Source: Brockia lithotrophica
GTDB taxonomy: Bacteria > Bacillota > Bacilli > Thermicanales > DSM-22653
Length of the DNA: 64,000 nt
NCBI RefSeq assembly: GCF_003633725.1
Contig: NZ_RBIJ01000001.1
Span: 124,001-188,000, forward strand
Reading direction: 5' to 3'
The first letter of the stretch is position 1. Each line of letters opens with the position of its first letter. The notes under the pieces are model-generated. The model did not search any database and was not told the origin of the DNA. It saw only the letters and a list, made by a program, of their open reading frames with translations. Shown one piece after another: positions 37,313 to 57,643 of this stretch. The position numbers and the translations under genes are program-made.

Positions 37313-38332
37313 TCAATCTTCCTTGACGCAGAGGTGGCGCATCTTGAGGAGTTTGTACGTCTTCCACGTGAAGAAGGCGAGCCACGTGAGAAGCACGACG
37401 TTGAAGAAGTGGGCGAGCCAGCGGAAGATTTCTTCGTGCGTCATGTGGTACGCGAGGATCGTGGCGATCGTGAGGGCGGCGCTGGGAAAGAGATACGCCC
37501 ACCAGGAAATGTAGAAAGGAATCCGCGTGTACATGCGGAACTGGAAGAGGAAGAGAAGGGCCATGAAGAGGGCGATGCTGTAGAGGATTTGGGCAAAGAT
37601 GTCGAAGCAGCCCGTGAGCTTCACGTAGGAGATGCACCCGACGGCGGGCGGGGCCATGAGGATGAAGAACGTCGGCACGAGCTTGATGGGAAGCGGAGCG
37701 TGGAAGAAGATTCGGTAGAAGAAGATCGTGCCGAGGACGATGCTGAAGAACAGGCCGACGCCGAAGAAAAACACGTTGATTCCGAGCGGGGCGAATTCCA
37801 CTCCCGCCACGGGGACTACGATGTTCCCTACGAAGGGGATGAACCAGGCGGGGTTGTAGTGCTGGATCTCAAAGGTGTCCTGGTGGATGAGCTTGTTCAA
37901 AATCGCCAAGGTAATTCCCAGGTGAAGCGGCGTTCCGATCCACCAGAGGACGCGGGCGATATCCGGTACGAAGTCGAGGTAGGCAATGCTGAGGAGGAGA
38001 AAGCTTACGGAAAAGGCGGCAAAGAAGTTGATGCGCGTCGGGTGATTGAAGTCGCGGACGATCTCCTCCGGCCAGCGGATCGCGCGGACGATCTGAAGGA
38101 GGGTAAAGGCCGCGAAAAACGCGCTCGCCAAGACGAGGAGGGCTCCCGAGAGGATGTGGGGGACATCGAACAGGGTTTCCGTACGGTGGGTTGCGATGGT
38201 CACGCCCGCGATTCCCATCACGAGGGAGAAAAGGGCGATGGGGAAGTAGCGGAGCCCGCGCTCGACGTGTTCGCCGGAGGAGAGCTTTTCCGCATGCGGG
38301 CGAAACCCGCGAACGGCTTCAGGTTGTGCCAT
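37313..38332 (-). CDS. SLAC1-family anion channel / TDT transporter
   Basis: Integral membrane protein of 339 residues with about ten hydrophobic helices. YFPIALFSLVMGIAGVTIA at the start, NFFAAFSVSFLLLSIA, GTPLHLGITLAIL and NPAWFIPFVGNIVVPVAG are the recurring pattern of bacterial SLAC1/TehA-like (tellurite-resistance/dicarboxylate transporter, TDT) proteins, which conduct small anions. Substrate unknown. ATG with AGGGAGGAAAGG upstream on the minus strand and a near-perfect sigma-A promoter. It is monocistronic, convergent with the pyr operon. Confidence 0.82.
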   Translation of the reverse strand: MAQPEAVRGFRPHAEKLSSGEHVERGLRYFPIALFSLVMGIAGVTIATHRTETLFDVPHILSGALLVLASAFFAAFTLLQIVRAIRWPEEIVRDFNHPTRINFFAAFSVSFLLLSIAYLDFVPDIARVLWWIGTPLHLGITLAILNKLIHQDTFEIQHYNPAWFIPFVGNIVVPVAGVEFAPLGINVFFFGVGLFFSIVLGTIFFYRIFFHAPLPIKLVPTFFILMAPPAVGCISYVKLTGCFDIFAQILYSIALFMALLFLFQFRMYTRIPFYISWWAYLFPSAALTIATILAYHMTHEEIFRWLAHFFNVVLLTWLAFFTWKTYKLLKMRHLCVKED

Positions 38333-38436
38333 CGTCCTTTCCTCCCTTCCCGGAAAATTTTCCCGCGGTCGGAGCGGCCGGTCCCGTTTCCGGACCGGAG
38401 GAGTCGAGAATCGTTCTTGTTCTTTTTCCGAGAAAG

Positions 38437-38465
38437 ACTATACCTATTTGCGGGAAAGATGTCAA
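38437..38465 (-). promoter_or_regulatory. Sigma-A promoter of the SLAC1-type gene
   Basis: On the minus strand, TTGACA (38465-38460), 17 bp, TATAGT (38442-38437). It leaves an untranslated leader of about 100 nt that includes a CCGGTCC/GGACCGG hairpin. Confidence 0.8.
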
Positions 38466-38641
38466 GGAGGTGCGAGGTGCGAGCACGCACGTTTTATGGT
38501 TTTCATTTCCTTTCAGAAATGGGGCGGAGCGGGGGGAGGGAATGGAGCCCCTTTTTTATTGGCCTCTCGGCGGCCCCTTTTGGTACAATGAGAAACAAGG
38601 CGGGAAGTGCGCACACGCACCTGGAAAGGGTGGCAAGGCCC

Positions 38642-38905
38642 ATGGGGGGATACATCGTCTACCGGTTTTCCGGCGTTTCCGAAGTGCTCGAGCAACGTTT
38701 TTCCACGCTCAAGCTGGCGATGCGCAAGGCGTATCTGGACTGGGCATACCGCCGCTTTTTGCCCCTCACGATCGAAGTTCCCGGGGGCCCTTCCTTTGAC
38801 GTAGACGCGATGCGCGCGTTTTGGGAAAAGGAAGGGTGGCCCACGGAAGGCCAAGGGTTTTGGAAAGGCGGAGCGCCCCGCGGGATTCTGCAGTGGGAAG
38901 GGTAG
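38642..38905 (+). CDS. Small hypothetical protein
   Basis: Unrecognised 87-residue protein, rich in aromatic residues, beginning MGGYIVYRFSGVSEVLEQRF and containing a basic middle (LKLAMRKAYLDWAYRRF). No membrane segment, no metal motif. ATG with GGAAAGGGTGGCAAGG upstream; an earlier in-frame ATG at 38587-38592 overlaps a -10-like TACAAT and is less likely. It stands alone between two promoters; function unknown. Confidence 0.55.
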   Translation: MGGYIVYRFSGVSEVLEQRFSTLKLAMRKAYLDWAYRRFLPLTIEVPGGPSFDVDAMRAFWEKEGWPTEGQGFWKGGAPRGILQWEG

Positions 38906-38994
38906 TTGGGAGACGAGAGAGCGGACAGAGGTAGGCCGAGGTGGCACGATTTCCTCGGTCTTTTCTTCGTTTTTCGCTCCGGCGGCGGAAAGTT

Positions 38995-39023
38995 TTGCTC
39001 CCCAGCGCCTTTGGAGGTAAAAT
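38995..39023 (+). promoter_or_regulatory. Candidate sigma-A promoter of methyltransferase-DUF364 pair
   Basis: TTGCTC (38995-39000), 17 bp, TAAAAT (39018-39023), 54 nt before the GTG start of the methyltransferase gene. Confidence 0.5.
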
Positions 39024-39076
39024 ACAAAAAGAATCGAGGTTGAAAGCGTTTACCGATCGGAGAGAGGTGGCGCTTC

Positions 39077-39937
39077 GTGGCGATCGACGAAGCCGTATTC
39101 CGCGCACTTTGGCCGGGAGGGCCCGCGCGCTATGCCGAACAAGAGTCGTTTTGGAACCGTCGGGCGGACGAGTTCGGACGCCTGCTCGAGGATCCCGAAC
39201 GCAAGCGGCGCGTGGAGGACCTGCTCGCCTGGTTCAACGCGGAGGGCGTTCCCCGACCGCCGGCGCGCGTATTGGACATCGGGTGCGGGCCAGGGACGTA
39301 CGCGATCTTTCTCGCCCAAGAGGGCTACGACGTCACCGGCGTAGACATTGCGGAACGGATGGTAGAAAGGGCTCGCGCGTACGCCGAACGCTACGGCGTC
39401 GCGGACCGCACGCACTTTGTGCAGGCGGTTTGGGAGGAGTTGGACTTGGACGCCGTGGGCTGGCGTGGCGCCTTCGACTTCGTCTTTGCCTCCAATACGC
39501 CCGCCATTCGCAACGCCGACGCCTTTCTCAAGATGGTAGAGGCGTCGCGAAACGCAGGTTTTCTCTCCAGCTTCGTCTGGCGGCGAGACAGCCTGCGGGA
39601 AGAACTCGAGGCGGCCTTGGGCTTTCGGCCGCCGGAAGACGTGTTTCGCGAGGCGTTCGACGAGCCTCGCGTTTACGCGGTGCTCAACCTCCTCTGGCTT
39701 CGCGGCTTTCATCCGTCCGTAACGTACCGCCGCGGCGGGTGGACGCAGCGGCTCACCGTCGAAGACGCCATAGACCGCTACCTCCGGCGCTTCATCCGCG
39801 AGGCAAAAGACGAGGAGGCCCTGCGGAGGGAAATCCGCGCCTTCCTCGAACGCCGTGCCGACGCCGAGGGAACGGTCACGACCCACGTGCGCACCAAGAT
39901 GGCCTGGATCTTTTGGCGAAAGGAAGACGACGAATGA
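39077..39937 (+). CDS. Class I SAM-dependent methyltransferase
   Basis: Cytoplasmic protein of 286 residues. The Rossmann motif I is VLDIGCGPGTYAIFLAQ (about residues 64-80), followed by VTGVDIAERMVERAR (motif II) and a DFVFASNTPAI segment (motif IV). Substrate is not evident. GTG start after AGAGAGGTGG. Its stop overlaps the start of the DUF364 gene (ATGA), so the two form a translationally coupled pair with one promoter upstream. Confidence 0.85.
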   Translation: MAIDEAVFRALWPGGPARYAEQESFWNRRADEFGRLLEDPERKRRVEDLLAWFNAEGVPRPPARVLDIGCGPGTYAIFLAQEGYDVTGVDIAERMVERARAYAERYGVADRTHFVQAVWEELDLDAVGWRGAFDFVFASNTPAIRNADAFLKMVEASRNAGFLSSFVWRRDSLREELEAALGFRPPEDVFREAFDEPRVYAVLNLLWLRGFHPSVTYRRGGWTQRLTVEDAIDRYLRRFIREAKDEEALRREIRAFLERRADAEGTVTTHVRTKMAWIFWRKEDDE

Positions 39938-40683
39938 TCGTTCGGGAGATCGCCCGACGCCTCGCGCCGTACGCGCGCGACCTGCGCGTCGTGGACTACG
40001 GACTGTGCCTTTTGGCCGCCTACGTCGTCGTCGAGGGACCGGACGGACGCCGGGCCTTTGGCGCGGCCCACATTCCGCACGAGGACATCCACCGGGTGGG
40101 GCGCGTCCATCCCCCCGAACTCGGGGCCCTAGAGCGGTTCGTCGTCGATCCCCATCCCCTCAACCGCGTGCTCGGCCTCGCCATGGCGAACGCCGTAAGT
40201 CAGTACCACTATCCACCCGTGCGCCGGGCCGATTCCGACGCGTTGATCCAGCGGCTCGTCGCCTATCCGGACCCCATCTGCCTCGTGGGGAACATGAGCC
40301 CCCTCGACCACCTGTTGCGCGATCGCGGGAAGGACGTCTGGGTGTTCGAACGTTCTCAGTCGCTCAAGGGTCCATTCTCCTTTTCCGACGTGGAGGAGCC
40401 CCTCCTCCTCCCGCGTTGCGGGGCCGCCGTGATCACGGGGATGACGCTCAACAACTTCACCGTCGACCGCGTCCTCGAGCTCGTTTCCGGGTACCGCGTC
40501 CTCGCAGGGCCTTCGGCGAGCATCCTTCCTCAAGTGCTCGAGGGACTCGGCTTCGACGCCCTCTTTTCCATGACGTATTCGTCCGTGGACGCGCCGCTTC
40601 GCCACGTAAAGCTCGGCGGGTTTCTCTCGCCGGCAATTCACGTCGACCTTGGGACGCCGTTCTTCTGGGAGTTTCCCGATTGA
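39934..40683 (+). CDS. DUF364/DUF4213 putative heavy-metal-chelation domain protein
   Basis: 249 residues with an N-terminal enolase-like DUF4213 part (RRLAPYARDLRVVDYGLCLLAAYVVVEG) and a C-terminal Rossmann-like DUF364 domain marked by ITGMTLNNFTVDRVLEL and GPSASILPQVLEGLGFD. These proteins are thought to bind metals or metal cofactors and are often next to methyltransferases or metal transporters; the biochemical role is unproven. ATG overlaps the stop of the methyltransferase. The last 46 nt are antisense to the next gene. Confidence 0.78.
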   Translation: MIVREIARRLAPYARDLRVVDYGLCLLAAYVVVEGPDGRRAFGAAHIPHEDIHRVGRVHPPELGALERFVVDPHPLNRVLGLAMANAVSQYHYPPVRRADSDALIQRLVAYPDPICLVGNMSPLDHLLRDRGKDVWVFERSQSLKGPFSFSDVEEPLLLPRCGAAVITGMTLNNFTVDRVLELVSGYRVLAGPSASILPQVLEGLGFDALFSMTYSSVDAPLRHVKLGGFLSPAIHVDLGTPFFWEFPD

Positions 40684-41174
40684 CGCGGTTCCGGCCAGGT
40701 GAGGGGGGAGACGTCGAAGCGCACCCCGAGGACGAAGAGCCGCTTTTGCGGGTCCCAGGCGGCGAGGTACTCCGCATACGGTTCGCGATAGGTGCGAAAG
40801 AGGGGGCGCGTCCACTCCCGGCCCTCGCCGAGAACCCCTAAGCGCTCGAGGAAAAACGAGATTTCGGAGAGAGAGACTTGAGCCTGCGTGGCGCGGAAAA
40901 AGCGTACCGCGGTGCGAAGGCGGGCAAGGTTTGGCGGTACGGCGCGGGAGAGGAAGGCCGCGGAGTATACGGAACGGAAGGCGCCGTCTTCGCCTACGTG
41001 ACCGAACCATACGGCAACGCCGTCGTTCTCGCGCGCGCTCCAAAAGCGCGCGCGTGGGGGAGACGTAGGTGGGTTCGGCAAGGCGCTCCCGCCTCGTTCC
41101 CAGGAGTTTCTCAACGGGACGCCCAAGTCCCGCAGGCGGACGACGAGTTCCCCCGGGGTAGACGGTCGGATCAT
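40638..41174 (-). CDS. Hypothetical protein (minus strand)
   Basis: Unrecognised protein of about 178 residues starting MIRPSTPGELVVRLRDLGVPL; the frame stays open to a GTG at 41222 (194 residues). Third codon positions are strongly G/C as in real genes here, and the middle (ISFFLERLGVLGEGREW ... YLAAWDPQKRLFVLGVRFDV) looks like a folded domain. No motif identified and the ribosome site is weak. Its 3' end overlaps the DUF364 gene tail-to-tail. A plus-strand terminator lies upstream, so the real transcript direction is worth testing. Confidence 0.5.
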   Translation of the reverse strand: MIRPSTPGELVVRLRDLGVPLRNSWERGGSALPNPPTSPPRARFWSARENDGVAVWFGHVGEDGAFRSVYSAAFLSRAVPPNLARLRTAVRFFRATQAQVSLSEISFFLERLGVLGEGREWTRPLFRTYREPYAEYLAAWDPQKRLFVLGVRFDVSPLTWPEPRQSGNSQKNGVPRST

Positions 41175-41235
41175 GTGCGCTCTCGCGGGCACCGCGCGAC
41201 GCGGCGGTGCCCAGAAGTTCACCTCCGCATGGCAC

Positions 41236-41257
41236 GCCCCCTTCGTGGGGGCTTTTT
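41236..41257 (+). terminator. Rho-independent terminator (plus strand)
   Basis: GCCCCC-TTCGT-GGGGGC followed by TTTTT. It points in the plus direction and lies 550 nt after the DUF364 gene, upstream of the minus-strand hypothetical gene and 93 nt before the histidine kinase. Confidence 0.75.
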
Positions 41258-41349
41258 CTTTCCTCAGTTTTCCACTTCGGGGTCCTGTGCATTCGGAGTG
41301 AATTCTGCCGAACCCGAGGAATAGAGGTAAGATAGAAGATGGCGAAAGG

Positions 41350-42681
41350 ATGACGGGGATGGAGCTTCTGCGCGACGGAGTGGCGTTTTTCGGAGCCGCT
41401 GTGTTTTTCTGGTGGGGGTACCGGATCCTTCTTGAGGCGCTTTCTCCCTTAGGGGAAACGAAGAGGGGATCCGGTGCCCTTGTGCGCTTCTCCGTCGAGG
41501 TCCTCTCCGTTGCGTGGGTTGTCGTGAGTTTCTCGACGATGTCGCGGTGGTCGTTTCCTTCCGGCGCCGAGTACAGCCTCTTTCTTCCCTACGTGGTTGC
41601 CATGACGACGCGTCGCTTCCCGATCCTCCTCGTGTCGTCTCTCTTCCCCATTCTCTACTTCTTCGGTTCCCCCGTAGGGGAGGCCCTCGTTCTCGGCCTT
41701 GTAGGCGCCTTTAGTGGGTACCTCGGAAAAGGAGGGGGGATCGATGTCCGGTCCCCCTTTCGCCTCGACGGCCTCCTCCTCCTCGCCGCAGCGTTCTTCG
41801 CCTACGCCCTCGTTTGGTTGGGCGGCCGTGTCGGACCACTTCGCGACGTCTTCTCCGTCCGTCCGCCTTCGCCCCTGCCCCTCTGGATGGGATTCGCCTT
41901 GGTCGTCTTTGCCGCCGCGTGGCTCTTCGACGTGCACGCAGAGCGGCTTCACGTGTTTCCCTCCCGCGAATCTGCCCGGGAGCGGCGGCCGTTCGTCGCC
42001 GTGTTTGCCCACGAACTCAAAAACAGCTTGGCCGTCCTGCGCGGGTACCTCCAGCTCAACGCGCGGGCGATGCCTGCCGCGCAGCAGAAGCTCCTCCTGA
42101 GCGAAGTCGACCGCGCACAACTTCTGGCAGAAGAGCTCCTCGACTTGTACGTTCCCAAGCCCTTGCAGAGAAAGGACGTCGATCCCGTAACTTTGCTCAC
42201 CGAGGTACACGAACTCATGCGGCCGTATGCCAACCAGGCGGAGGTCTACCTCGCCCTCCGCTATCAGTCGTTCCACGAAAAGGCATGCGCCCTCGATGCC
42301 CGACGGGTACATCAGGCGCTCGTGAACGTGATCAAAAACGCCATCGAAGTCTCTCCCCCGGGTGGCACCGTGACGTTGGAGCTCCGGAAGGAAGGGGAGT
42401 ACGTGGTCTTTTCCGTGGCGGACGAAGGTCCGGGAATTCCAGAGCCCCAGCGCGCGCACGTATTCGATCCCTTTTGGAGCAACAAGGCGGGCGGTACGGG
42501 CATCGGCCTTTTCCTCACGCATCGAATCGTCGTCGCCCACGGGGGGAAGATCGAGATCGAAGAGCGAAACCCGCATGGAACGATCTTCCGCCTCGTCTTC
42601 CCCTGCCGGGCTCACACGGCGCTCGAATCCGAGGCGTTCGACGCATACGGGCGAGAAACGCCCGAAGATCTGTCTTTTTGA
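41350..42681 (+). CDS. Membrane sensor histidine kinase
   Basis: 443 residues. The first 200 residues carry six or so hydrophobic helices (a 5TM/MASE-like sensor), then the DHp helix with the phospho-His in FAHELKNSLAVLRGYL (about residue 221), and the ATP-binding domain: N box NVIKNAIEVSPPGG, G1 DEGPGIP, F box DPFWSNKAGGTGIGL. The layout resembles KinB/KinC-type sporulation kinases that feed Spo0F/Spo0A. No response-regulator gene is adjacent, so it is an orphan. ATG at 41350 or 41359; GAAAGG lies directly upstream. Confidence 0.88.
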   Translation: MTGMELLRDGVAFFGAAVFFWWGYRILLEALSPLGETKRGSGALVRFSVEVLSVAWVVVSFSTMSRWSFPSGAEYSLFLPYVVAMTTRRFPILLVSSLFPILYFFGSPVGEALVLGLVGAFSGYLGKGGGIDVRSPFRLDGLLLLAAAFFAYALVWLGGRVGPLRDVFSVRPPSPLPLWMGFALVVFAAAWLFDVHAERLHVFPSRESARERRPFVAVFAHELKNSLAVLRGYLQLNARAMPAAQQKLLLSEVDRAQLLAEELLDLYVPKPLQRKDVDPVTLLTEVHELMRPYANQAEVYLALRYQSFHEKACALDARRVHQALVNVIKNAIEVSPPGGTVTLELRKEGEYVVFSVADEGPGIPEPQRAHVFDPFWSNKAGGTGIGLFLTHRIVVAHGGKIEIEERNPHGTIFRLVFPCRAHTALESEAFDAYGRETPEDLSF

Positions 42682-42735: not shown

Positions 42736-43431
42736 TCACGCGTACGTCCGAAGGAGCACTTCTTCAATCCCTTCCGGAAGGCGCTTTTTAATTTCTTCGA
42801 GCATGGAGGCGGGCGTGGGAGTTTCCCCGCTCGCCTCTACGTCTTTTACGCCGGGGGAAGGGCGGTAAGCTTGAAGCGCGTAGCGCTTGCAAGGGGCGAC
42901 CCAGCGGGCGATTTCTAAGACGTCCTCTACCGTGTGAAGCCTTTCTACAACCGTCGTGCGGAATTCGTAGTCGGGGGCGAGGGCCTTTATGAGCTCTATC
43001 GATTCGGCTACGCGGTCTACGTCGCGGAGGTCCCAGACGTATTCGCCGTACTTTTCCCGGGGCGCCTTGACGTCCATGGCGATGTAGTCCACGAGCCCTT
43101 CGCGGAAGAGGGCTTCCAGTACGTGCGGCCTAGAGCCCTGAGAGTCGAGCTTTACCTTGAGGCCTAAGTCCTTGATTCGCCTGAGAAGTTCGGGAAGTCC
43201 CTTCCAAAGCGTAGGCTCTCCCCCCGTGATGCAAACGCCTTCTAACGCATCTGCGCGAGAGCGCAAGTACGCGAGGAATTCGTCTTCTGTCCTCCTAGGA
43301 TTCGGCTGCACGCGGATGAGTTCGGAGTTGTGGCAGTACGGACAGCGGAAGTTGCAACCGCTTATGAAGGCCGTAGCGGCGACGTGCCCCGGATAGTCCA
43401 CGAGCGTAAGGGGAAGGAAGTCGTAGAACAC
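42736..43431 (-). CDS. nrdG: Anaerobic ribonucleotide reductase activating enzyme NrdG (radical SAM)
   Basis: Radical SAM glycyl-radical activase, 231 residues. The 4Fe-4S motif is CNFRCPYC (CxxxCxxC, near residues 26-33), followed by the SAM-binding ITGGEPTL. The N-terminus (FLPLTLVDYPG) is typical of the longer NrdG-like activases. GTG start with GGAGG eight nucleotides upstream on the minus strand. It would generate the glycyl radical on NrdD, whose gene lies 1.8 kb upstream, separated by an insertion sequence. Confidence 0.92.
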   Translation of the reverse strand: MFYDFLPLTLVDYPGHVAATAFISGCNFRCPYCHNSELIRVQPNPRRTEDEFLAYLRSRADALEGVCITGGEPTLWKGLPELLRRIKDLGLKVKLDSQGSRPHVLEALFREGLVDYIAMDVKAPREKYGEYVWDLRDVDRVAESIELIKALAPDYEFRTTVVERLHTVEDVLEIARWVAPCKRYALQAYRPSPGVKDVEASGETPTPASMLEEIKKRLPEGIEEVLLRTYA

Positions 43432-43482
43432 GGCAAAAACCTCCTTTTTAGAAAAACGGGGGAGTGCGAGGGGGCTGTAATC

Positions 43483-43502
43483 CCCCTCAATTTATTGAGG
43501 GG
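43483..43502 (+). repeat. Left-end hairpin of the IS element
   Basis: CCCCTCAAT-TT-ATTGAGGGG, nine perfect pairs with a 2-nt loop. It corresponds to the TnpA-recognised subterminal hairpin. A competing hairpin GAGGGGG/CCCCCTC (43468-43474 with 43482-43488) overlaps its left arm. Confidence 0.85.
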
Positions 43503-43563
43503 ATACACGGACCCCCTCGTCCTAATACTTGCGTTTCTTCTCCTTGCGTAATACCATGAAGGT

Positions 43564-43989
43564 ATGAAGAAGAAGGCTTGGAAGTCCACAGGAACGGCGG
43601 TCTACAACATCAATTACCACTTTGTATGGTCAACCAAGTATCGTCGCAAAGTGCTCCTTCCTCCAGTAGACGCTTCCCTGAAGGAAGCTATCATCGCTCT
43701 CTGCGCAGAACACGGGTACGAACTGCTAGCCCTGGAGGTTATGCCCGATCACGTGCATGTTTTTCTTTCCGCCCCTCCCAAAGTTGCACCTGCAGTGATA
43801 GCCAAGGTGCTGAAAGGTTCCACTGCCCGGATGCTTTTTAAGAAGCATCCGGAGCTCAAAAAGGAGCTCTGGGGCGGCCACTTATGGAATCCAAGCTATT
43901 ATGTGGGCACGGCGGGACAGGTCTCAAGCGAAGTCATTAAAAGGTATATCAAGGCTCAAAAGACAATAGGGGAAGGAGGTGAACTGTGA
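43564..43989 (+). CDS. tnpA: IS200/IS605 transposase TnpA (Y1 HUH)
   Basis: Single-strand transposase of 141 residues that cuts and rejoins the element ends. The HUH motif is DHVHVF (His63, His65) and the nucleophile is Tyr128 in IKRYIKAQ; the typical YNINYHFVWSTKYRRKVL start and LWNPSYYVGTAG segment are present. It looks complete and active. ATG start; its stop overlaps the GGAGG-driven start region of tnpB. Confidence 0.95.
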   Translation: MKKKAWKSTGTAVYNINYHFVWSTKYRRKVLLPPVDASLKEAIIALCAEHGYELLALEVMPDHVHVFLSAPPKVAPAVIAKVLKGSTARMLFKKHPELKKELWGGHLWNPSYYVGTAGQVSSEVIKRYIKAQKTIGEGGEL

Positions 43990-45219
43990 GTGCCCTTCGT
44001 CACTATTAAAGCCCAGGTTCACGCCGACCCCAAGACCCTGACCGTCCTCAAAGACGCCATGTTTTGCGCCACCAAGGTCTACAACGGCCTCCTCTGGCAC
44101 CTCCGGAAGGAGTGCGAGGAGACCGGAAAAGCAAATGTTTCCCGCAGGAACCTCAACCGCATCTTAAAAAAACTTCCCCGGGCGAAAGGTTACTACTCGA
44201 TGTCCGTGCAGCTCACGAGGGACGAAGTGATAGAAGCGTACAGGTCCTTCTTCGCCCTCAAGAAAAAGGGGTTCACGCGGCACAGCGCCCCCGGATTTCG
44301 TCCGAAAAGCTACCTCTCCCCGCTCAAGTACGTCCAGAGCGGCTTCAGGGTGGAAGGAGACAAGGTCACGGTTTCTCTGGGCACCGGCCGGGAAGACGGG
44401 GTAAGACAGGTCTCCTTCCGCATCTCTCACCGTCCCGGCGTGGAGTACGAGCGGGTGCGGGAGCTCTCCATCATCTACGACAAGGTGTCCGGGCAGATAG
44501 AGGCCCGTCTGGTGGTGGAGGTGAAGGCGAACCCGCGTCCTGGGACAAAGAGAGTTGCCCTGGATTTGGGGGAGACCGTTCTCATGGCGGCCGCCTTCGA
44601 GGACGGTACCGTGCTGCTCTACTCGGGCAGGTTCATTAAGTCGGTTAGGAGATACTGGCAGAAGGTGCGGGCGAGTCTCAAGCCAAACTCCCATAGGTGG
44701 AGGGAGGTGGCCCACCGGGAAAAGCTTCAAGTGGAGCACCTGCTCCACATTGCCACGTCCCACTTCATAGAGGAGTGCGTGAGGCGGGGCGTGGGGGAGA
44801 TAGCCATCGGGGATCTTTATTGCATCCGCGAGAGCATCGACTACGGAGACAAACTCAACCAGAGGCTACATGCCTGGCCGTACCGGAAGCTAGTCAATAT
44901 GCTCAAGTACAAGGGTGCTCTGGCGGGAATTGTGGTCCGGGACGACGTGGACGAGAAGAACACGTCCGCGCGCTGTCACGCCTGCGGGCGCGTCTTACCC
45001 TCCAACCGGAAGCACAGGGGGCTTTACGAGTGTTCCTGCGGCTGGAGGGCGCAGGCGGACGTGAACGGCTCTCTGAACATCTTCGAGAGGGCGTTCCAGG
45101 TATCTCCCGTGAAGGGGAGTAGTGGCCGTGTGGCGCGGCCTGTGGTCCTGTCATTCCACTTGGGATGGCACGGAGTCCACGAACCGAAGCGCAGGAACAA
45201 AAGCCTGCGCGCATCCTGA
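43990..45219 (+). CDS. tnpB: RNA-guided nuclease TnpB (IS605 OrfB)
   Basis: 409 residues. Helical N-terminal part, wedge domain, then a RuvC nuclease: Asp192 in VALDLGE, segment II reading EIAIGDLY (Gly274-Asp275 where a Glu is usual), and Asp357 in ADVNGSLNI. The zinc finger is CHAC (329, 332) with CSC (348, 350). In known relatives TnpB uses an RNA from the element's right end to cut the vacated donor site. GTG start preceded by GGAAGGAGGTGAAC, adjacent to tnpA. Whether the segment II change abolishes cutting is not known. Confidence 0.93.
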   Translation: MPFVTIKAQVHADPKTLTVLKDAMFCATKVYNGLLWHLRKECEETGKANVSRRNLNRILKKLPRAKGYYSMSVQLTRDEVIEAYRSFFALKKKGFTRHSAPGFRPKSYLSPLKYVQSGFRVEGDKVTVSLGTGREDGVRQVSFRISHRPGVEYERVRELSIIYDKVSGQIEARLVVEVKANPRPGTKRVALDLGETVLMAAAFEDGTVLLYSGRFIKSVRRYWQKVRASLKPNSHRWREVAHREKLQVEHLLHIATSHFIEECVRRGVGEIAIGDLYCIRESIDYGDKLNQRLHAWPYRKLVNMLKYKGALAGIVVRDDVDEKNTSARCHACGRVLPSNRKHRGLYECSCGWRAQADVNGSLNIFERAFQVSPVKGSSGRVARPVVLSFHLGWHGVHEPKRRNKSLRAS

Positions 45220-45227
45220 AAGGGATG

Positions 45228-45247
45228 CCCCTCAATTCATTGAGGGG
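45228..45247 (+). repeat. Right-end hairpin of the IS element
   Basis: CCCCTCAAT-TC-ATTGAGGGG, nine perfect pairs, identical to the left hairpin except for one loop base. It ends seven nucleotides before the complement of the nrdD stop codon. Confidence 0.85.
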
Positions 45248-45253
45248 AGGACG

Positions 45254-47455: not shown

Positions 47456-47593
47456 GTGGAGGTTGGGATGGGGGTAAGGGTGTCATACTCTTCCGACGTA
47501 CGCGACGTAGCACGATCTCTGCGCCGCACTGTCAGCGCTTTCAGACGGCCCTCACCCAAGCGCAAAAAGACGCACGTAGGGGGGAACGGGAGC

Positions 47594-48694
47594 ATGCCGA
47601 CCGCTACGGGGCACAAGACGATCTACGAGGAAGCTTTGGAAGCCGGCCTCACGCGGCGCGACTTCCTTAAGCTCGCCTCGGCGATCACCCTCGCCCTGGG
47701 GCTCGACCTCAAGGAAATGCCCAAGGTCGTCCGGGCGATGGAGACGAAGGAACGCGTACCGGTGATCTGGCTGGAGTTCCAGAGCTGCAGCGGATGCGGG
47801 GAATCTTTCATTCGCTCCATGCAGCCGCGCATGGAAAAGGTCCTCTTCGATCTCATCTCCCTCGAGTACACGGAACTCATCATGGCAGGTGCCGGAAGCG
47901 CGGCGGAAGAACACCGCAAGAAGATCATGGCCGAATACCCCGGGAAGTACGTCCTCGTCGTCGAGGGAAGCGTCCCGGCGCCGGAGTACCTCTTCATCGG
48001 CGGGCATTCCGCGTACGACATCCTCCGGGAGACCGCGGAAAAGGCGATGGCCGTCGTCTCCTTCGGAAGCTGCTCGTCCTGGGGCGGGATTCCCGCGGCC
48101 AAGCCAAACCCGACAGGGGCCAAGGCGGCCGCCGATCTCGTAAAGGGGAAGCCTGTGATCCGCATCCCGGGCTGCCCGCCGATCGCGGAAGTCATGACGA
48201 ACACGATCGCCCACATCGTGATCTTTGGCCAAATCCCCGAACTCGACGAGCTCGGTCGGCCCAAGGAATTCTTCCGTCACCGCCTGCACGACAAGTGCCA
48301 GCGCCGCGCGTATTTCGACGCTGGGCTCTTTGCCGAGTCGTTCGACGACGAAGGGGCGCGGCAAGGGTACTGCCTGTACAAGCTCGGATGCCGGGGTCCG
48401 ACGACGTACAACGCCTGCGCGGAACTCCGCTGGAACGGCGGCCTCTCCTGGCCCGTACAGTCTGGCCACCCGTGCATCGGTTGTTCGGAGCCCAACTTCT
48501 GGGACCAGGGTCCTTTCTACGAGCGGCTGGCGATGATTCCGGGCACGCAGACGACGGTAAACCCCGAAAAGGTAGGCGCAATCCTTACGGGTGTCGTCGT
48601 TGCGGGCATCGCCGCCCACGCTGCGGCTACCGTCGTGCTCCGCGGGCGGATTGCGAAGCACGAAAAGGCCGAAACGGCCGCCAAGGAAGAGTAA
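47594..48694 (+). CDS. hyaA: NiFe hydrogenase (group 1) small subunit
   Basis: 366-residue electron-transfer subunit of a membrane-bound uptake hydrogenase. Twin-arginine signal TRRDFLK (Arg21-Arg22) before a hydrophobic stretch shows Tat export together with the large subunit. Iron-sulfur ligands: CSGCGES (65, 68), FGSCSSWGG and IPGCPP for the proximal cluster; HDKC, YCLYKLGC, NACAEL, HPCIGC for distal and medial clusters. A C-terminal membrane helix (about 325-345) anchors it. The ATG at 47594 with GGGGGGAACGGGAG is preferred over the upstream open frame. First gene of the hydrogenase locus. Confidence 0.95.
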   Translation: MPTATGHKTIYEEALEAGLTRRDFLKLASAITLALGLDLKEMPKVVRAMETKERVPVIWLEFQSCSGCGESFIRSMQPRMEKVLFDLISLEYTELIMAGAGSAAEEHRKKIMAEYPGKYVLVVEGSVPAPEYLFIGGHSAYDILRETAEKAMAVVSFGSCSSWGGIPAAKPNPTGAKAAADLVKGKPVIRIPGCPPIAEVMTNTIAHIVIFGQIPELDELGRPKEFFRHRLHDKCQRRAYFDAGLFAESFDDEGARQGYCLYKLGCRGPTTYNACAELRWNGGLSWPVQSGHPCIGCSEPNFWDQGPFYERLAMIPGTQTTVNPEKVGAILTGVVVAGIAAHAAATVVLRGRIAKHEKAETAAKEE

Positions 48695-48729
48695 ACCAAA
48701 CGACCGCGAGAAAGACGGGGTGAGAGAGA

Positions 48730-50499
48730 ATGGCCAACCGCTTGGTCGTCGACCCGATCACGCGCATCGAGGGACACCTCAGAATCGAGGCCGAACTCGA
48801 CGGGAGTGGAAGGATTTCCAAGGCCTACAGCTCCGGCACGGCCGTGCGCGGGATCGAGCTCATCGTCCAGGGGCGTGACCCGCGCGACCTGTGGGCCTTC
48901 ACGCAGCGCATCTGCGGCGTTTGCACCACGGTGCACGCGCTGGCGTCGGTCCGCGCAGTGGAAAACGCTCTGGGCATCAAAATTCCGCTCAACGCCAACC
49001 TGATCCGCAACATCATGTACGGGGCGCAGATGGCCCACGACCACACGGTGCACTTCTACCAGCTGCACGCCCTCGACTGGGTGAACGTCGTATCCGCAGC
49101 CCAGGCCGACCCGGTGAAAGCGAGCGAGATCGCCCAGAACTACGCTCCGTGGTCGAACTGGCCGAAGACTTCGCCCGCCTACTTCAAGGACATTCTCGCC
49201 AAGCTCAAGAAGGTCATCGACAGCGGGCAGTTGGGGATCTTCGCCACGGGGTACTGGAACCACCCCGCGTACGTGCTTCCGCCGGAGATCAACCTCATCG
49301 CCGTTGCCCACTACCTGGAGGCCCTCGACTGGCAGCGCGAAGTCGTCCGCATCCACACGATCTTCGGCGGCCGCAACCCGCACCCCAACTACGTGGTAGG
49401 CGGCGTACCGTGGCCCATCGACCTGAACAGCGACAACGCCCTGAACACCTCCCGCCTCACGGAAGTCGGCCGCCAGCTCGACATGGCCATCGAATTCGTA
49501 AACAACGTGTACTACGCGGATGCCATCCTCCTCGCGGCGGCTTACCGCGACTGGAGGTACGGGGGCGGGCTCAAGAACTACATCTCGTACGGGGACATGC
49601 CGCCGAACGACATCGACGACGTGGCGTCCTACCGCTTCCCGCGGGGTGCGGTGCTCGACTTCAACTTGAACGAAGTTCACCCCGTGGACATGGTCGACCC
49701 GAAGCAGATTCAGGAGTTCGTCGACCACTCCTGGTACACGTACGACGGCAAGGAGAAGCCCGGATACGGAAAGCACCCGTTTGAAGGAGAGACGAACCTC
49801 CACTTCACCGGCCCCAAGCCTCCCTTCGAGTACCTGAACGTCGAAGGGAAGTACTCGTGGGTGAAGGCGCCGCGCTGGGAAGAAAAGCCCATGGAGGTCG
49901 GGCCGCTGGCGCGGATGATCGTGGGGTACGCGGCGAAGAACGAAGTCATCCGGGGGACGGTAGACGAAGCGCTCGCCCGCGTAAACGAGACGATCAAGGC
50001 GCTCGGCGGGACGGACACGGTGGACATCCACTGGATGCACTCCGCCATCGGCCGCACCCTCGCCCGCGCCCTCGACGCCAAGATCGCCCTCCAGTACGCC
50101 AAGGAAGACTTCGACCGCTTGCTCGCGAACATCAAGGCGGGCGACTGGTCGACCTTTAACGGCAAGAAGTGGGATCCGTCTACTTGGCCCAAGGAGGCTA
50201 AGGGCGTCGGGTACACGGAGGCCCCGCGCGGCGCGCTCGGCCACTGGGTGATCATCAAGGACGGGAAGGTCGAGCGGTTCCAGGCCGTCGTGCCGACGAC
50301 GTGGAACGCTTCGCCGCGGGATGCGCTCGAAAACGTGGGTGCATACGAGGCCTCCCTCGTCGGAACCCCCATCCACAAGGCGGACGAACCGGTGGAGATC
50401 CTCCGGATCATCCACTCCTTCGACCCGTGCATGGCGTGTGCCGTGCACCTCACGGACCTCACGACCAACCAAACCCTCGAGTTCTTCCTCGACATGTAA
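48730..50499 (+). CDS. hyaB: NiFe hydrogenase (group 1) large subunit
   Basis: 589-residue catalytic subunit holding the NiFe(CN)2CO site. N-terminal L1 motif RICGVC (Cys62, Cys65) and C-terminal L2 motif DPCMACAVH (Cys567, Cys570, His573). Sixteen residues follow the L2 histidine and form the peptide removed by the endoprotease encoded downstream. It oxidises H2 on the outer face of the membrane with HyaA and the cytochrome b. ATG start 35 nt after hyaA. Confidence 0.97.
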   Translation: MANRLVVDPITRIEGHLRIEAELDGSGRISKAYSSGTAVRGIELIVQGRDPRDLWAFTQRICGVCTTVHALASVRAVENALGIKIPLNANLIRNIMYGAQMAHDHTVHFYQLHALDWVNVVSAAQADPVKASEIAQNYAPWSNWPKTSPAYFKDILAKLKKVIDSGQLGIFATGYWNHPAYVLPPEINLIAVAHYLEALDWQREVVRIHTIFGGRNPHPNYVVGGVPWPIDLNSDNALNTSRLTEVGRQLDMAIEFVNNVYYADAILLAAAYRDWRYGGGLKNYISYGDMPPNDIDDVASYRFPRGAVLDFNLNEVHPVDMVDPKQIQEFVDHSWYTYDGKEKPGYGKHPFEGETNLHFTGPKPPFEYLNVEGKYSWVKAPRWEEKPMEVGPLARMIVGYAAKNEVIRGTVDEALARVNETIKALGGTDTVDIHWMHSAIGRTLARALDAKIALQYAKEDFDRLLANIKAGDWSTFNGKKWDPSTWPKEAKGVGYTEAPRGALGHWVIIKDGKVERFQAVVPTTWNASPRDALENVGAYEASLVGTPIHKADEPVEILRIIHSFDPCMACAVHLTDLTTNQTLEFFLDM

Positions 50500-50534
50500 G
50501 GTTTCCGAACGGTCCGGCCCTCTCGCGCGCCGCA

Positions 50535-50576
50535 GGGGGAACTCCCGAAGGCGCGATGCACCCTGGGGGTTCCCCC
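50535..50576 (+). other. Intergenic hairpin between hydrogenase large subunit and cytochrome b genes
   Basis: GGGGGAAC (50535-50542) pairs perfectly with GTTCCCCC (50569-50576) over a 26-nt loop, with GC clamps outside. No T-run follows. It may protect the hyaAB mRNA and set lower expression of the downstream genes. Confidence 0.45.
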
Positions 50577-50625
50577 GCGGGAGGGTTTGGCGGATATGGA
50601 ATTTGTGGAGAGGGGAGGCGAGCAC

Positions 50626-51408
50626 ATGGCGCGGACGTCGGGAGGGAGCGGATCCGCGCAGGTAGCCGCCCCGAGTGGGAAGCTCGTCGACCGCGTCCCC
50701 AAGGTGGAACGCGTGTCGCCCGGTACGGTCAAGGTTTACGTCTGGGAGCTCCCCGTTCGGGTGTGGCACTGGGTCAACGCTCTGGCGATTTTCACGCTCT
50801 TCGTGACCGGCGTGTACATCGGCAATCCGTTCGTCCAGCCCATCCCCATCGAGGCTACGGAAGCGTCGAACTTCTTCATGGGGTGGGCGCGGGACATCCA
50901 CTTCATCACGGCGTTCATCTTCACCCTGGGATGGATTGGCCGGTTGTACTGGCTCATCTGGGGGAACCGCTACGCAGCTGAGCATCCGTTTAGGAAAGAC
51001 TTCTGGAAGGGCATGTGGGAGACCCTCAAGTTCTACCTGTTCCTGCCAAACAAAAAGCAGCACTACGTGGGGCACAACCCCTTGGCGATGTTTAGTTACT
51101 GGCTCCTGGGGATCATGTCCCTTATAATGGTGCTGACGGGGTTCTACATGCTCTTTGAACCGCAACCCGAGAGCTTCTGGGGTAAGCTCTTCGCCTGGGT
51201 GCCGTGGATCTTCGGGCCGAGCTTCATGGTTCGGTCGTGGCACCGCATCGTCGCCTGGCTCATCATGATCTTTGTAGTCGTCCACGTGTACATGGCCATC
51301 CGCGACGATGTCCTCGAGAAGAGCGGGACGTTGAGCTCCATCTTTACGGGCTACAAGGTCGCCCCCGAAGAAGCCGTGCGGGAAGAACTCGCCAAGAAGA
51401 GCGACTGA
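50626..51408 (+). CDS. hyaC: NiFe hydrogenase b-type cytochrome subunit
   Basis: 260-residue membrane cytochrome b (HyaC/HupC type) carrying electrons from HyaA to menaquinone. Four main hydrophobic helices; candidate haem ligands are the histidines in VWHWVNAL, DIHFITAF, and SWHRIVAWLIMIFVVVHVYMA. The frame is open from 50587, but the ATG at 50626 with AGGGGAGG seven nucleotides upstream is preferred. A cytoplasmic N-terminus of about 45 residues is longer than in E. coli HyaC. Confidence 0.93.
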   Translation: MARTSGGSGSAQVAAPSGKLVDRVPKVERVSPGTVKVYVWELPVRVWHWVNALAIFTLFVTGVYIGNPFVQPIPIEATEASNFFMGWARDIHFITAFIFTLGWIGRLYWLIWGNRYAAEHPFRKDFWKGMWETLKFYLFLPNKKQHYVGHNPLAMFSYWLLGIMSLIMVLTGFYMLFEPQPESFWGKLFAWVPWIFGPSFMVRSWHRIVAWLIMIFVVVHVYMAIRDDVLEKSGTLSSIFTGYKVAPEEAVREELAKKSD

Positions 51409-51491
51409 TCGCCTCGAAGGTTCGCCGGTTCTTCGAGGCGGTTCCGGCAGGGGGACCTGCCGTCTGAGGGATTTGAAAAGATGCGGAAGCA

Positions 51492-51527
51492 GCGCCGCGG
51501 GGGCTACGCGGGCCTCGCGGCGCTTTT
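51492..51527 (+). terminator. Terminator-like hairpin after hyaC
   Basis: GCGCCGCG (51492-51499) pairs with CGCGGCGC (51516-51523), with an inner GGGC/GCCC-like stem, followed by TTTT. It lies between hyaC and the maturation protease gene and would reduce transcription of the accessory genes. Confidence 0.6.
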
Positions 51528-51557
51528 CATCGCCGGCTAGTTCGGGGGGATGCTCCT

Positions 51558-52097
51558 GTGCACATCACCGTGCTGGGGCTGGGGAACACGCTTTTCAGCG
51601 ACGAAGGGGTGGGGATGCACGTCCTCCCGCTTCTGGAAGAGGCGCTTCGTGCCGCGTACGGCAAACGCAAGGACCTCACCGTCGACATCGTCGAAGGGGG
51701 AACGGACGGCCTTCGGCTCATCGTTCCCGTCGAAGATGCGGAAAACTTGATCGTCGTCGACGCCGTCGAAGCCAAAAAGCCGCCCGGTACCGTGCTCGTG
51801 ATCGAAGGCGAGGAAAACATCCCTGTGTACTACGGGGTGCGCCTCTCCGCCCACGAGATTGGACTTCCGGAGATCCTCTTTGGTGCCAAGATTCGTGGCC
51901 GACTTCCCAAGCGCGTGGCCCTTGTGGGCGTTCAGCCGGCCTCCTTGGAAGTAGGTCTCGAACTTACGGACACCGTTCGGGCGAAGCTGCCCGAGGTCGT
52001 CGAAGCCGTCCTCGGCCTGGTGGAAAAATGGGTACGGGAGGAACTCGGGGAGGAATCCGCCGAGCGGGCGAAGGAAGACATACACCCTCCCTCTTAA
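51558..52097 (+). CDS. hyaD: Hydrogenase maturation endopeptidase (HyaD/HybD family)
   Basis: 179-residue protease that clips the C-terminal peptide of the large subunit after Ni insertion. N-terminal GLGNTLFSDEGVG carries the first metal-sensing acidic residue; others lie in IVEGGTDGLRL and VVDAVEAKKPPG, with the third ligand His in SAHEIGLPEIL. GTG start after GGGGGG. The C-terminal 20 residues are a charged extension. Confidence 0.93.
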   Translation: MHITVLGLGNTLFSDEGVGMHVLPLLEEALRAAYGKRKDLTVDIVEGGTDGLRLIVPVEDAENLIVVDAVEAKKPPGTVLVIEGEENIPVYYGVRLSAHEIGLPEILFGAKIRGRLPKRVALVGVQPASLEVGLELTDTVRAKLPEVVEAVLGLVEKWVREELGEESAERAKEDIHPPS

Positions 52098-52170
52098 AGA
52101 CGGGCGGAAGGACCGTTACCTCCCGACGTCCGGGGGCGGCAGAGGACCGCGGCTCGGAAGGGAAGTGGAC

Positions 52171-52317
52171 GGTCTTTCGTCCGCGTAAGGGAACCCGAGC
52201 CGCCGCCTCGACCGGCGGCATGCCGTACGGCAAGTCTTTGCCCGCGGCGGGAAACCTAGCAGCGCGCCACTCGGGATCCAGCACGTCGTGGCAGGTCTTT
52301 GCCCGCAGAGGGGAACC
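52171..52317 (+). repeat. Three direct repeats with 61-62 nt period
   Basis: Copies at 52171-52195, 52233-52256 and 52294-52317 share RGTCTTTGCCCGC followed by 3-5 variable bases and GGGRAACC; copy 1 has one extra base and CGT for GC. The two later copies are also preceded by GGCA. The 36-37 nt between copies differ in sequence. They lie in the 238-nt non-coding gap between hyaD and the zinc-ribbon gene. No cas gene is in the window. Could be a degenerate CRISPR-like array, an RNA element or regulator sites. Confidence 0.6.
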
Positions 52318-52335
52318 CCTCGGGGGGTGAGAACG

Positions 52336-52764
52336 GTGGAGCGGCGGGAGTTTTGGAAGAGCCTCAAGGAAGAGCTTTTCGGGTTTGTACGGGAGGTTGC
52401 CGCCCCTCTAGCGGAAGAGTACGCCGAGCGCCTCGAAGAGGTTTCGGAGGCGGTAGAAGGTGTGCTCTGGTTTCCCGTACGCGTTCGGAATCTCGAGCCG
52501 GGGGAAGCCGAGCTCGTCTTTGCTGGAAACGACGCCTTCTTCGTCGTCAAAGATCGGGATGGGAACGAACGCGCGCTCCGGAACCGCTGCCCCACGTGCG
52601 GCGGACTCCTCACCCACATCCCCTACGCCCGTGCACTTCGCTGCCTGCGTTGTCGGACGGAATACCGTATACTAGACAACGGGGGAACCCTCGCGCCTCT
52701 TTGGGTGCGCTTTCGTCGGGACGACGAGGGGGCCCGCATTGGGGTGAAGGTCGATGAGCCATGA
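52336..52764 (+). CDS. Hydrogenase-locus zinc-ribbon protein, unknown function
   Basis: About 142 residues. An N-terminal amphipathic helical half (REFWKSLKEELFGFVREVAAPLAEEYAERL) precedes a C-terminal domain with CPTC and CLRC pairs (NRCPTCGGLLTHIPYARALRCLRC), a zinc ribbon or rubredoxin-like knuckle, and no CxH Rieske motif. GTG start with GGGGGGTGAG upstream. It ends inside the hypA start (11-nt overlap), so it is translated with the nickel-insertion genes. A role as assembly chaperone or electron carrier for the hydrogenase is inferred only from position. Confidence 0.75.
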   Translation: MERREFWKSLKEELFGFVREVAAPLAEEYAERLEEVSEAVEGVLWFPVRVRNLEPGEAELVFAGNDAFFVVKDRDGNERALRNRCPTCGGLLTHIPYARALRCLRCRTEYRILDNGGTLAPLWVRFRRDDEGARIGVKVDEP

Positions 52765-53107
52765 GGTCGCACTCATGGGCGACATTCTCAACCTCATCGC
52801 CGAGGACATGAAGGTTCGGGGGCTCAGCAAGGTGCTCAAGATCGAACTCATCGTCGGCGATCTGTCCAATGCCATGCCGGACGCCCTCGAGATGGCCTTC
52901 GAGATCCACAAGGCGATGAAGTCGCCCATCCTGGACGAGTCTTCCGAGCTCGTGATCATCCGCGAGGAAGCGCGGGCGAAGTGCGTCTTTTGCGGGCACG
53001 AGTACACCCCGGACAACCGCGTCGCCCTCTGCCCGAACTGCGGCATGCCGGGCGGCAAGATCATCTCCGGGGAAACCCTCAAAGTTCTCTCCTACGAAGG
53101 GAGTTGA
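52754..53107 (+). CDS. hypA: Hydrogenase nickel-insertion protein HypA
   Basis: 117-residue nickel chaperone working with HypB. Zinc site CVFC and CPNC in the C-terminal half; the conserved VGDLSNAMPDALEMAFE helix region is present. The nickel site at the N-terminus reads MSHEV instead of MHE; removal of Met would leave Ser-His-Glu, restoring His at position 2. ATG start overlaps the previous gene. Confidence 0.93.
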   Translation: MSHEVALMGDILNLIAEDMKVRGLSKVLKIELIVGDLSNAMPDALEMAFEIHKAMKSPILDESSELVIIREEARAKCVFCGHEYTPDNRVALCPNCGMPGGKIISGETLKVLSYEGS

Positions 53108-53112
53108 TCGGA

Positions 53113-53781
53113 GTGGAGCGCATCGTCCTTTCCGAGGACGCCCTCGCGAGCAACAACAAGGCGGCGGCGCACAACCGGGAGCTCTTTCGCAAGTACGGGG
53201 TCCTCACGATCAACATCATGAGCGCCCCGGGGTCGGGCAAGACCACCCTTCTCGAGCACACCGTGAAAGCGCTTGCGCCGAAGTACCGAATCGGCGTGAT
53301 CGAAGGCGACCTCGCGACGCAGAAGGACGCGGACCGAATTCGCGCGGCCGGAGCAAAGGCGATCCAGATCAACACGCAGGGGGTCTGCCACCTCGACGCC
53401 CGCATGGTGGCCAAGGTGCTTCCGCAGTTTGACCTCTCCCAGTTCGACATCGTGTTCATCGAGAACGTGGGGAACCTGATCTGCCCGGCAAACTACGACC
53501 TCGGCGAACGCCACCGCGTCGCCCTTCTCAGCGTCCCCGAAGGCAACGACAAGATCCTCAAGTACCCCGTGATGTTCCTCAAGACGGAGCTCGTCCTTCT
53601 CAACAAGATCGACCTTTTGCCGTACTTCGAATTCAGCGTCGAGCAGGCCGTCGAAGACCTCCGGACGATCAACCCGGACTCGCGGCTCATCCCGATTTCC
53701 ACAAAGGACGGGACGAACCTCGACCAGTGGTACGCTTGGATTGACGAGGTGTACGCGGCTTGGAAGCAGATGGTGGCGTAA
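53113..53781 (+). CDS. hypB: Hydrogenase nickel-insertion GTPase HypB
   Basis: 222-residue GTPase of the SIMIBI class. P-loop SAPGSGKTTLLE, switch IEGDLATQKDADRI, GVCHLDARMV with the Cys-His metal site at the dimer interface, and the base-recognition NKIDLLPY. The N-terminal high-affinity nickel motif CCxxCGC and His-rich stretches are absent. GTG at 53113 after GGGAG; spacing to hypA is 5 nt. Its end overlaps hypF by 22 nt. Confidence 0.95.
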   Translation: MERIVLSEDALASNNKAAAHNRELFRKYGVLTINIMSAPGSGKTTLLEHTVKALAPKYRIGVIEGDLATQKDADRIRAAGAKAIQINTQGVCHLDARMVAKVLPQFDLSQFDIVFIENVGNLICPANYDLGERHRVALLSVPEGNDKILKYPVMFLKTELVLLNKIDLLPYFEFSVEQAVEDLRTINPDSRLIPISTKDGTNLDQWYAWIDEVYAAWKQMVA

Positions 53782-56129: not shown

Positions 56130-56134
56130 AGATC

Positions 56135-56383
56135 ATGTGCGTTGGGGTACCCGGGAAAATCCTCGAACGCGACGAGTACACGGCGATTGTCGACGTCATG
56201 GGTTCGCGGCTTAAGATCGGCATCCTCCTCACGCCGGACGTAGAAGTGGGGGACTGGGTGCTCGTGCATGCGGGGAAGGCGCTGCAGGTCATCGACGAGC
56301 AGTTTGCCCTCGAGAGCATCGAGGCGTGGAAGCTCATCAATGAGCTTCGGGAGCAGGGCGTCATCGATCCGACCGACCGCTGA
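56135..56383 (+). CDS. hypC: Hydrogenase assembly chaperone HypC
   Basis: 82-residue chaperone that carries the Fe(CN)2CO unit with HypD and delivers it to the large subunit. N-terminal MCVGVPGKIL with the essential Cys2, then an OB-like barrel (VGDWVLVHAGKALQVID). ATG with GGGGGG upstream, 5 nt after hypF; the longer open frame upstream lies within hypF. Confidence 0.96.
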   Translation: MCVGVPGKILERDEYTAIVDVMGSRLKIGILLTPDVEVGDWVLVHAGKALQVIDEQFALESIEAWKLINELREQGVIDPTDR

Positions 56384-56427
56384 ATTCGGCCTTCTGGTGA
56401 GTAAGAAAAGAGACGGGGGGAAGGCGG

Positions 56428-57567: not shown

Positions 57568-57643
57568 TCCCCCGAACGTCGTCCGGGAGTCCCCACGAAA
57601 AGGTCTCGCAAGGGTTGACGATGAGGCCAAAGGAGGGCAGGGC

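Follow-up and report, generated by a model that had tools for sequence, protein, structure and literature searches.

The opine metallophore staphylopine is served by Cnt synthesis enzymes together with a NikA-like importer. Opine metallophore systems, in which an enzyme modifying a small molecule is encoded beside a NikA/CntA-like importer, are in this respect similar to some members of the methyltransferase family analyzed here, whereas the methyltransferase under study has no nicotianamine-synthase match (this family was absent among its 16 Pfam matches at E 0.01). For archaeal nickel and cobalt uptake, a 2009 survey distinguishes, in the part drawn on here, three transporter families, Nik/CbiMNQO, NikABCDE and NiCoT (PMC2667541). 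The DUF364 structure has been described since 2010 and, in the portion of that report used here, is tied to heavy-metal chelation in general only (PMC2954201). One DUF364 member raises prodigiosin production in Serratia, as stated in the part of the source consulted (PMC4046660). A methyltransferase-DUF364 pair, or DUF364 together with nickel, appeared in no title or abstract opening among the literature matches listed, in a search that mostly left subscription journals aside.

A pair of overlapping genes in Brockia lithotrophica is compared here with these systems. Positions refer to the window, the whole 64,000-nucleotide stretch of DNA that was analyzed, unless another locus is named (Table 1). 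The pair probably helps the cell to capture nickel or the molecule that carries it. This role is proposed because the pair lies near a hydrogenase operon and because relatives of both halves recur beside metal uptake genes.

The gene pair and its surroundings

The methyltransferase was matched by Methyltransf_25 with an E value of 1.2e-15 (Pfam) and carries the SAM-binding motif VLDIGCGPG at residues 65-73, of which D67, G69, G71 and G73 are kept in 44 of 44 aligned rows. The best NCBIfam match, the corrinoid protein-associated methyltransferase CpaM (NF043040), was rejected as an identification at 55 bits against a cut-off of 180. In the second protein, DUF364 (PF04016) scored 82.6 bits (cut-off 23) and DUF4213 (PF13938) 29.8 bits (cut-off 23.5). 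The preliminary description, made from the sequence alone, was thus correct in naming a SAM methyltransferase and a DUF4213-DUF364 protein, and the ATGA overlap that it reported is found unchanged in a second genome of the same genus (G001). Comparison with G001 gave dN 0.049 and dS 0.386 (ratio 0.13) for the methyltransferase and dN 0.026 and dS 0.398 (ratio 0.06) for the DUF364 gene. These ratios identify both as conserved proteins rather than chance open reading frames, and both are under purifying selection.

The same description had given the pair its own promoter, which did not find support: a scan of positions 38300-41400, covering the sigma-70 type only, returned no plus-strand site before the pair, and its sole match lies on the minus strand (38465-38437) before a SLAC1/TehA-like gene. 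The closest plus-strand ORF on the upstream side that was taken for a gene (38642-38905) ends about 170 bases before the GTG start, which has a Shine-Dalgarno-like AGAGAGGTGG on its 5' side. An Rfam search of the window found no riboswitch and no match at all. At the other end, a 194-aa ORF without a Pfam match (40638-41222, minus strand) runs towards the DUF364 gene and overlaps its 3' end; nothing in the G001 stretch matches most of this ORF (40742-41133).

Downstream, the hydrogenase operon encodes the small and large subunits, cytochrome b, a protease, HypA, HypB, HypF, HypC, HypD and HypE, with no nickel transporter among its named genes. At the corresponding place of G001, the stretch that was fetched contains the small-subunit gene and the greater part of the large-subunit gene. 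Between NrdG-like and NrdD genes lies an IS200/IS605-type element (43564-45219) with ORFs resembling TnpA and TnpB by eye; it looks recently inserted, as G001 lacks approximately 43431-45250. Two adjacent small ORFs at 60686-61473 resemble, by eye, the subunits of a CrcB fluoride channel.

Table 1. Location of the gene pair, its subfamily residues and the neighbouring hydrogenase operon in the window (G001, second genome of the genus).
Feature	Position	Strand	Basis or comparison
Class I SAM-dependent methyltransferase, 286 aa, GTG start	39077-39937	+	Methyltransf_25
ATGA start/stop overlap, methyltransferase/DUF364	39934-39937	+	Read directly; identical in G001
DUF4213-DUF364 protein, 249 aa, proposed nickel-linked His subfamily	39934-40683	+	Pfam, archaeal identity, model
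Cys25 codon	40006-40008	+	Subfamily 10/10, other DUF364 7/30
His46 codon (HIPHED motif)	40069-40071	+	Subfamily 10/10, others 0/30
His53 codon	40090-40092	+	Subfamily 10/10, others 0/30
His224 codon	40603-40605	+	Subfamily 10/10, others 0/30
His236 codon (IHxxLGxP tail)	40639-40641	+	Subfamily 10/10, others 0/30; 3npg stretch stops earlier
[NiFe] hydrogenase operon	47456-58651	+	Begins 6.8 kb from the pair

Occurrence of the pair

The nearest relatives were searched in 151 genomes including the organism's own, all matching ones being listed and 127 non-matching ones not. DUF364 genes were present in four of the 151, the own genome included, and G001 is the only other genome of the genus among those listed. 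It contains the pair, with order and overlap kept at 88% DNA identity, in collinear DNA that is 82-90% identical over approximately 15 kb and reaches the hydrogenase structural genes. Across the phylum, relatives of the window DUF364 protein were found in 22 of 398 genomes and the methyltransferase family in 86 of 398 at 1e-10, with best rows of full length and approximately 27-36% identity. The plasmid collection held no relative of the DUF364 protein.

Forty stretches around methyltransferase-family genes were fetched, mostly for the best matches and usually with about 6 kb on each side, less at contig ends; a profile search detected a DUF364 gene in none of them. Conversely, no methyltransferase of the window family was detected within 1.5 kb of other DUF364 loci outside the genus, and flanks of 8 kb added a single weak match (L175, 198 aa, 4.7 kb from the DUF364 gene) of 35 bits, where the window protein scores 300. 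The 8 kb flanks of the eight archaeal loci with the closest DUF364 relatives contained no window-type methyltransferase, and the genome of Pyrobaculum oguniense gave no match to it at 1e-5. As this archaeal, nickel-linked DUF364 occurs without it, the methyltransferase partner is not obligatory. With no such pair in loci outside the genus, the pair is, as far as the data reach, a genus-level arrangement; a widely conserved pair was rejected on these counts. A weak methyltransferase ORF of an unrelated kind, which only just exceeds one Pfam cut-off, precedes the DUF364 gene of L173 by 36 bases, and L029 carries a fragment homologous to this ORF without a Pfam match. One other, unrelated case was judged too few for a general rule of methyltransferase-DUF364 coupling.

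The expectation that the pair would be conserved together in other genomes is therefore largely disappointed, since it was seen solely in two genomes of one genus. Its proposed link to metals fares better, in that each half separately recurs with ABC importers of the metal-chelate type and the DUF364 subfamily lies near nickel and [NiFe] hydrogenase genes.

A histidine-bearing subfamily of DUF364 proteins

The predicted structure of the DUF364 protein (pLDDT 76.6) combines an enolase-N-like with a Rossmann-like fold. Its best match in the PDB was PH1506 (3npg, TM 0.78-0.79), which is 32% identical in sequence and has the two-domain fold in common, followed by Dhaf4260 (3l5o, TM 0.59-0.60), which shares the same fold. 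The pocket residues Gly37, Asn83, Gly129, Glu148, Thr174 and Thr182 of Dhaf4260 correspond to G43, N86, G119, E139, T168 and T176 of the window protein; Gly39 is replaced by A45 and Asp180 by N174, a position that is Asn in all 30 proteins compared.

The residues that set the window protein apart emerged from an alignment of ten subfamily members (window, G001 and eight archaeal) with 30 other DUF364 proteins, from which sequences shorter than 190 aa were excluded. Four histidines are confined to the subfamily, and Cys25 is shared by part of the other proteins (Table 1); Glu154 is found in 10/10 members and in 1/30 of the others. Mapped onto the published pocket, in the part of the report used here, His46 falls one residue after the equivalent of Dhaf4260 Gly39, which belongs to the pocket-lining glycine motif (PMC2954201). 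PH1506 lacks His46, His53 and His224, and its available stretch ends before the tail with His236; in the model of the window protein, residues 233-249 are unreliable and His236 is not placeable. As judged from this pattern of conservation, His46, His53, His224 and His236 may bind metal.

Other members of the family occur in a different setting. A second DUF364 gene of the organism itself (L159 5569-13541, contig C1 at approximately 605.6-613.6 kb) belongs to another subfamily and stands in a molybdenum/tungsten locus, with a Moco riboswitch, two ORFs that resemble ModA by eye, a FecB-type binding protein, a MoeA-like protein and ModD. Moco riboswitches also precede FecCD or FmdE-DUF364 clusters at L173 2780-8460 and L175 1828-8600. 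Given these riboswitches at other DUF364 loci, the fold is not specific to nickel and serves more than one metal.

Nickel and hydrogenase genes beside archaeal relatives

A scan of one genome per species, which used peptide patterns only and is insensitive, returned four loci, the best being that of P. oguniense at 52% identity. In the class of this archaeon, 20 of 81 genomes matched the DUF364 protein, eight of them at 45-54% identity; 17 of the 20 were fetched. All four histidines are present in these eight proteins, as they are in the window protein, and Hyp, NikR, NicT or CbiM genes lie within about 8 kb in six of the eight loci. The window protein shares both traits by which the subfamily is proposed, the histidines and hydrogenase genes nearby. 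The same count gave 0/9 for the fetched loci of other DUF364 genes in this class, of which four lie on short contigs, and 0/14 for DUF364 loci of the window's phylum. It comprised HypA/D/E/F, NikR, NicT and CbiM and excluded HypB/Mrp-like matches, with queries drawn from four of the archaeal loci and the window. The difference of 6/8 against 0/23 corresponds to a Fisher p of 4e-5, a value that overstates independence because the eight archaeal genomes are related; their loci fall into about three arrangements. L147 combines the DUF364 gene with HypE, NicT, NikR and HypA, and L149 with NikR, HypA, CbiM and NicT, to which CbiQ and CbiO were added by eye, while L145 and L146 have no nickel gene nearby. 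Names of HypD, HypE and HypF rest on scores above the NCBI cut-offs; for NikR, NicT, HypA and CbiM, the best match stayed below them.

HypD occurs in all eight subfamily genomes, and in five of the eight loci no more than 10 kb separates it from the DUF364 gene; among the genomes of the class in which other DUF364 proteins matched, 3/12 have HypD. Over all 81 genomes, the co-occurrence is weak (8/8 against 44/73, p 0.02). These archaeal loci differ from the window in that no methyltransferase partner was found and in that a FecB-FecCD-ATPase cluster adjoins the DUF364 gene in five of eight (L142, L143, L144, L146 and L148), whereas the organism's own FecBCD genes are located elsewhere in its genome. 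FmdE is encoded between the DUF364 gene and the Fec cluster in L142 and L143; in L148, an FmdE-profile match was detected 1.8 kb away on the other side.

Importers beside the methyltransferase family

NikA-like or FecBCD importers were encoded near the methyltransferase in 17 of 38 loci (12 Opp/Nik-type, five FecB-FecCD) and in none of 20 controls (p 1.5e-4). Two of the 40 stretches (L091, L098) were excluded from this count, as the gene fell outside the main cluster, and the controls, taken from 17 of these genomes, were placed at round coordinates without prior inspection, which is not a random draw. Ten of 15 binding proteins of the Opp type were tested; a NikA model was the best NCBI match for eight of the ten, and all ten stayed below the NikA cut-off (TIGR02294, 118-213 bits against 393). 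CbiM, in L080 and L083 only, was the sole nickel gene of the count found among the 40 loci and 20 controls. In the methyltransferase tree, the window protein falls into a set of 15 rows (95/90) that holds all five FecBCD-linked members, three Opp-linked ones and five others, one of them on a long archaeal branch.

Five of the 40 stretches around methyltransferase genes (L068, L077, L080, L083 and L086) contain cobalamin riboswitches, compared with 0/20 controls. Three stand beside operons of a methyltransferase and a NikA-like importer (L077 5575-6777, L080 4583-6855, L083 5827-8176). In L077, the riboswitch ends 167 bases before the methyltransferase-Opp operon; in L080 and L083, it lies between the methyltransferase and a CbiM/precorrin-6A reductase cluster, CbiM being the gene named in L080 and the reductase in L083. 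These three loci are candidates for a B12-regulated cobalt uptake system of which the methyltransferase is a part.

The two halves of the pair meet at one type of importer. In L070, L071, L078 and L085, a methyltransferase of the window family heads a same-strand run with FmdE, FecCD, the ATPase and FecB; these importers are 38-58% identical to that of the window genome, and the fetched stretches have no DUF364 gene. As the FecB profile included the P. oguniense sequence, its scores are not independent and a tree, built without pieces shorter than 250 aa, serves as the test. A 100/100 branch separates four of five methyltransferase-linked FecB proteins, the five archaeal DUF364-linked ones and one FecB of the window genome from five other DUF364-linked FecB proteins and the methyltransferase-linked one of L067. 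The FecB beside the organism's second, molybdenum/tungsten-type DUF364 copy falls into the same clade as the nickel-linked ones.

The corresponding importer of the window genome is encoded on contig C1 from 302718 onward. Its FecB is 38-46% identical to methyltransferase-linked and 46-47% to archaeal ones, and its FecCD 47-58% to the four methyltransferase-linked and 42-47% to archaeal ones. An FmdE gene lies beside it on the opposite strand, the product of which aligns over 177-213 residues with archaeal FmdE (31-36%) as against 64-69 residues with others. In G001, FmdE and FecB (90%) are both present, on separate contigs. Every component of the module is thus encoded in the genome, but the pair lies near the hydrogenase and not beside the importer. 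Among solved structures, 2etv, named as putative iron-binding, comes nearest to the binding protein of the importer. A CbiM-type ECF transporter is present as well, by which nickel could also enter, and no NicO-family match was found in the genome. A crystal structure of FmdE shows, in the part of the report consulted, a site of mixed zinc and nickel content, coordinated by His and Cys, in a protein that had passed a nickel resin (PMC2954224).

Proposed role and alternatives

The reading preferred here, with a probability of about 0.5, places the pair in the cytoplasm as an accessory to the uptake of a nickel (possibly nickel/cobalt) chelate, by which the [NiFe] hydrogenase encoded nearby is supplied. 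From the observed arrangement and conservation of the genes we infer the following biochemical steps. Nickel, probably bound to a ligand, would enter through the FecBCD-type importer encoded elsewhere with FmdE, and FmdE and the DUF364 protein would receive the imported nickel or nickel-ligand. Within its interdomain pocket, the DUF364 protein might hold the metal or its chelate by means of the histidines found in the subfamily only. It is plausible, as far as gene neighbourhoods and protein families indicate, that the methyltransferase modifies a metal ligand; the methyl acceptor would be this small ligand, whose methylation would be a step in its synthesis or would loosen it for nickel release, and the two proteins would act together. 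Nickel would then be passed to HypA/HypB, with the hydrogenase as its proposed customer. That the metal is nickel is itself put at roughly even odds; for the window copy, it is the best guess favoured by the neighbours of the subfamily, the histidines and the hydrogenase.

The riboswitches that accompany the methyltransferase half favour cobalt. If that half belongs to B12-regulated cobalt uptake, the pair would serve cobalt or a corrinoid and not nickel. The riboswitch directly before the methyltransferase-Opp operon of L077, those beside the CbiM/precorrin-6A reductase clusters of L080 and L083, and an importer permease that scores best against BtuC models (below the cut-off) are all consistent with this. 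One of the five riboswitch-bearing stretches, L068, shares the tree set of the window protein, though its riboswitch faces another gene. Against it stand the NikR-, HypA- and NicT-like genes beside the archaeal DUF364 half, the hydrogenase near the pair, the window without an Rfam match, and the five FecBCD-linked methyltransferase stretches of the window's own tree set, none of which has a cobalamin riboswitch. A role in cobalt or corrinoid metabolism is considered unlikely on this balance.

Quite unlikely, and somewhat more so than a role in cobalt, is a methyltransferase that acts on an unrelated small molecule and merely shares a transcript with the DUF364 gene. The restriction of the pair to one genus would be expected of chance neighbours, with the distant L175 match as the sole hint of it elsewhere; yet overlap and order have persisted in G001 while both genes were under purifying selection, and both halves attach independently to the same FecBCD-FmdE type of importer. 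More doubtful still is that the pair is a paralogue of a molybdenum or tungsten accessory module, as other DUF364 genes appear to be. The Moco riboswitches at L173, L175 and the organism's second copy, with ModA-like, MoeA-like and ModD genes beside the latter, the methyltransferase ORF directly before the DUF364 gene of L173, and a gene context with molybdate and tungstate transporters reported in the part of the structural paper used here (PMC2954201) all speak for such an origin. The window copy, however, has other neighbours and belongs to a separate subfamily distinguished by four additional histidines, and no Moco riboswitch was found in the window.

A more specific form of the nickel uptake reading can be put forward only as a tentative and rather improbable proposal. 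The pair may make or unmake a methylated nickel chelator of low molecular weight, such that the methyltransferase and the histidine-bearing DUF364 protein would constitute the cytoplasmic part of a so far unrecognised nickelophore route, built on FecBCD and FmdE and feeding the [NiFe] hydrogenase, that is shared by the genus and the Pyrobaculum-type archaea.

The analysis separates from the other DUF364 proteins a subfamily marked by four histidines of its own and by nickel or hydrogenase genes nearby, which makes one metal and four residues directly testable. If the proposed reading is true, FecBCD-FmdE-DUF364 would be a fourth archaeal route for nickel and cobalt beside the three surveyed families. 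These four residues, which can be tested in a family that has no assigned function, are the most useful product of the analysis.
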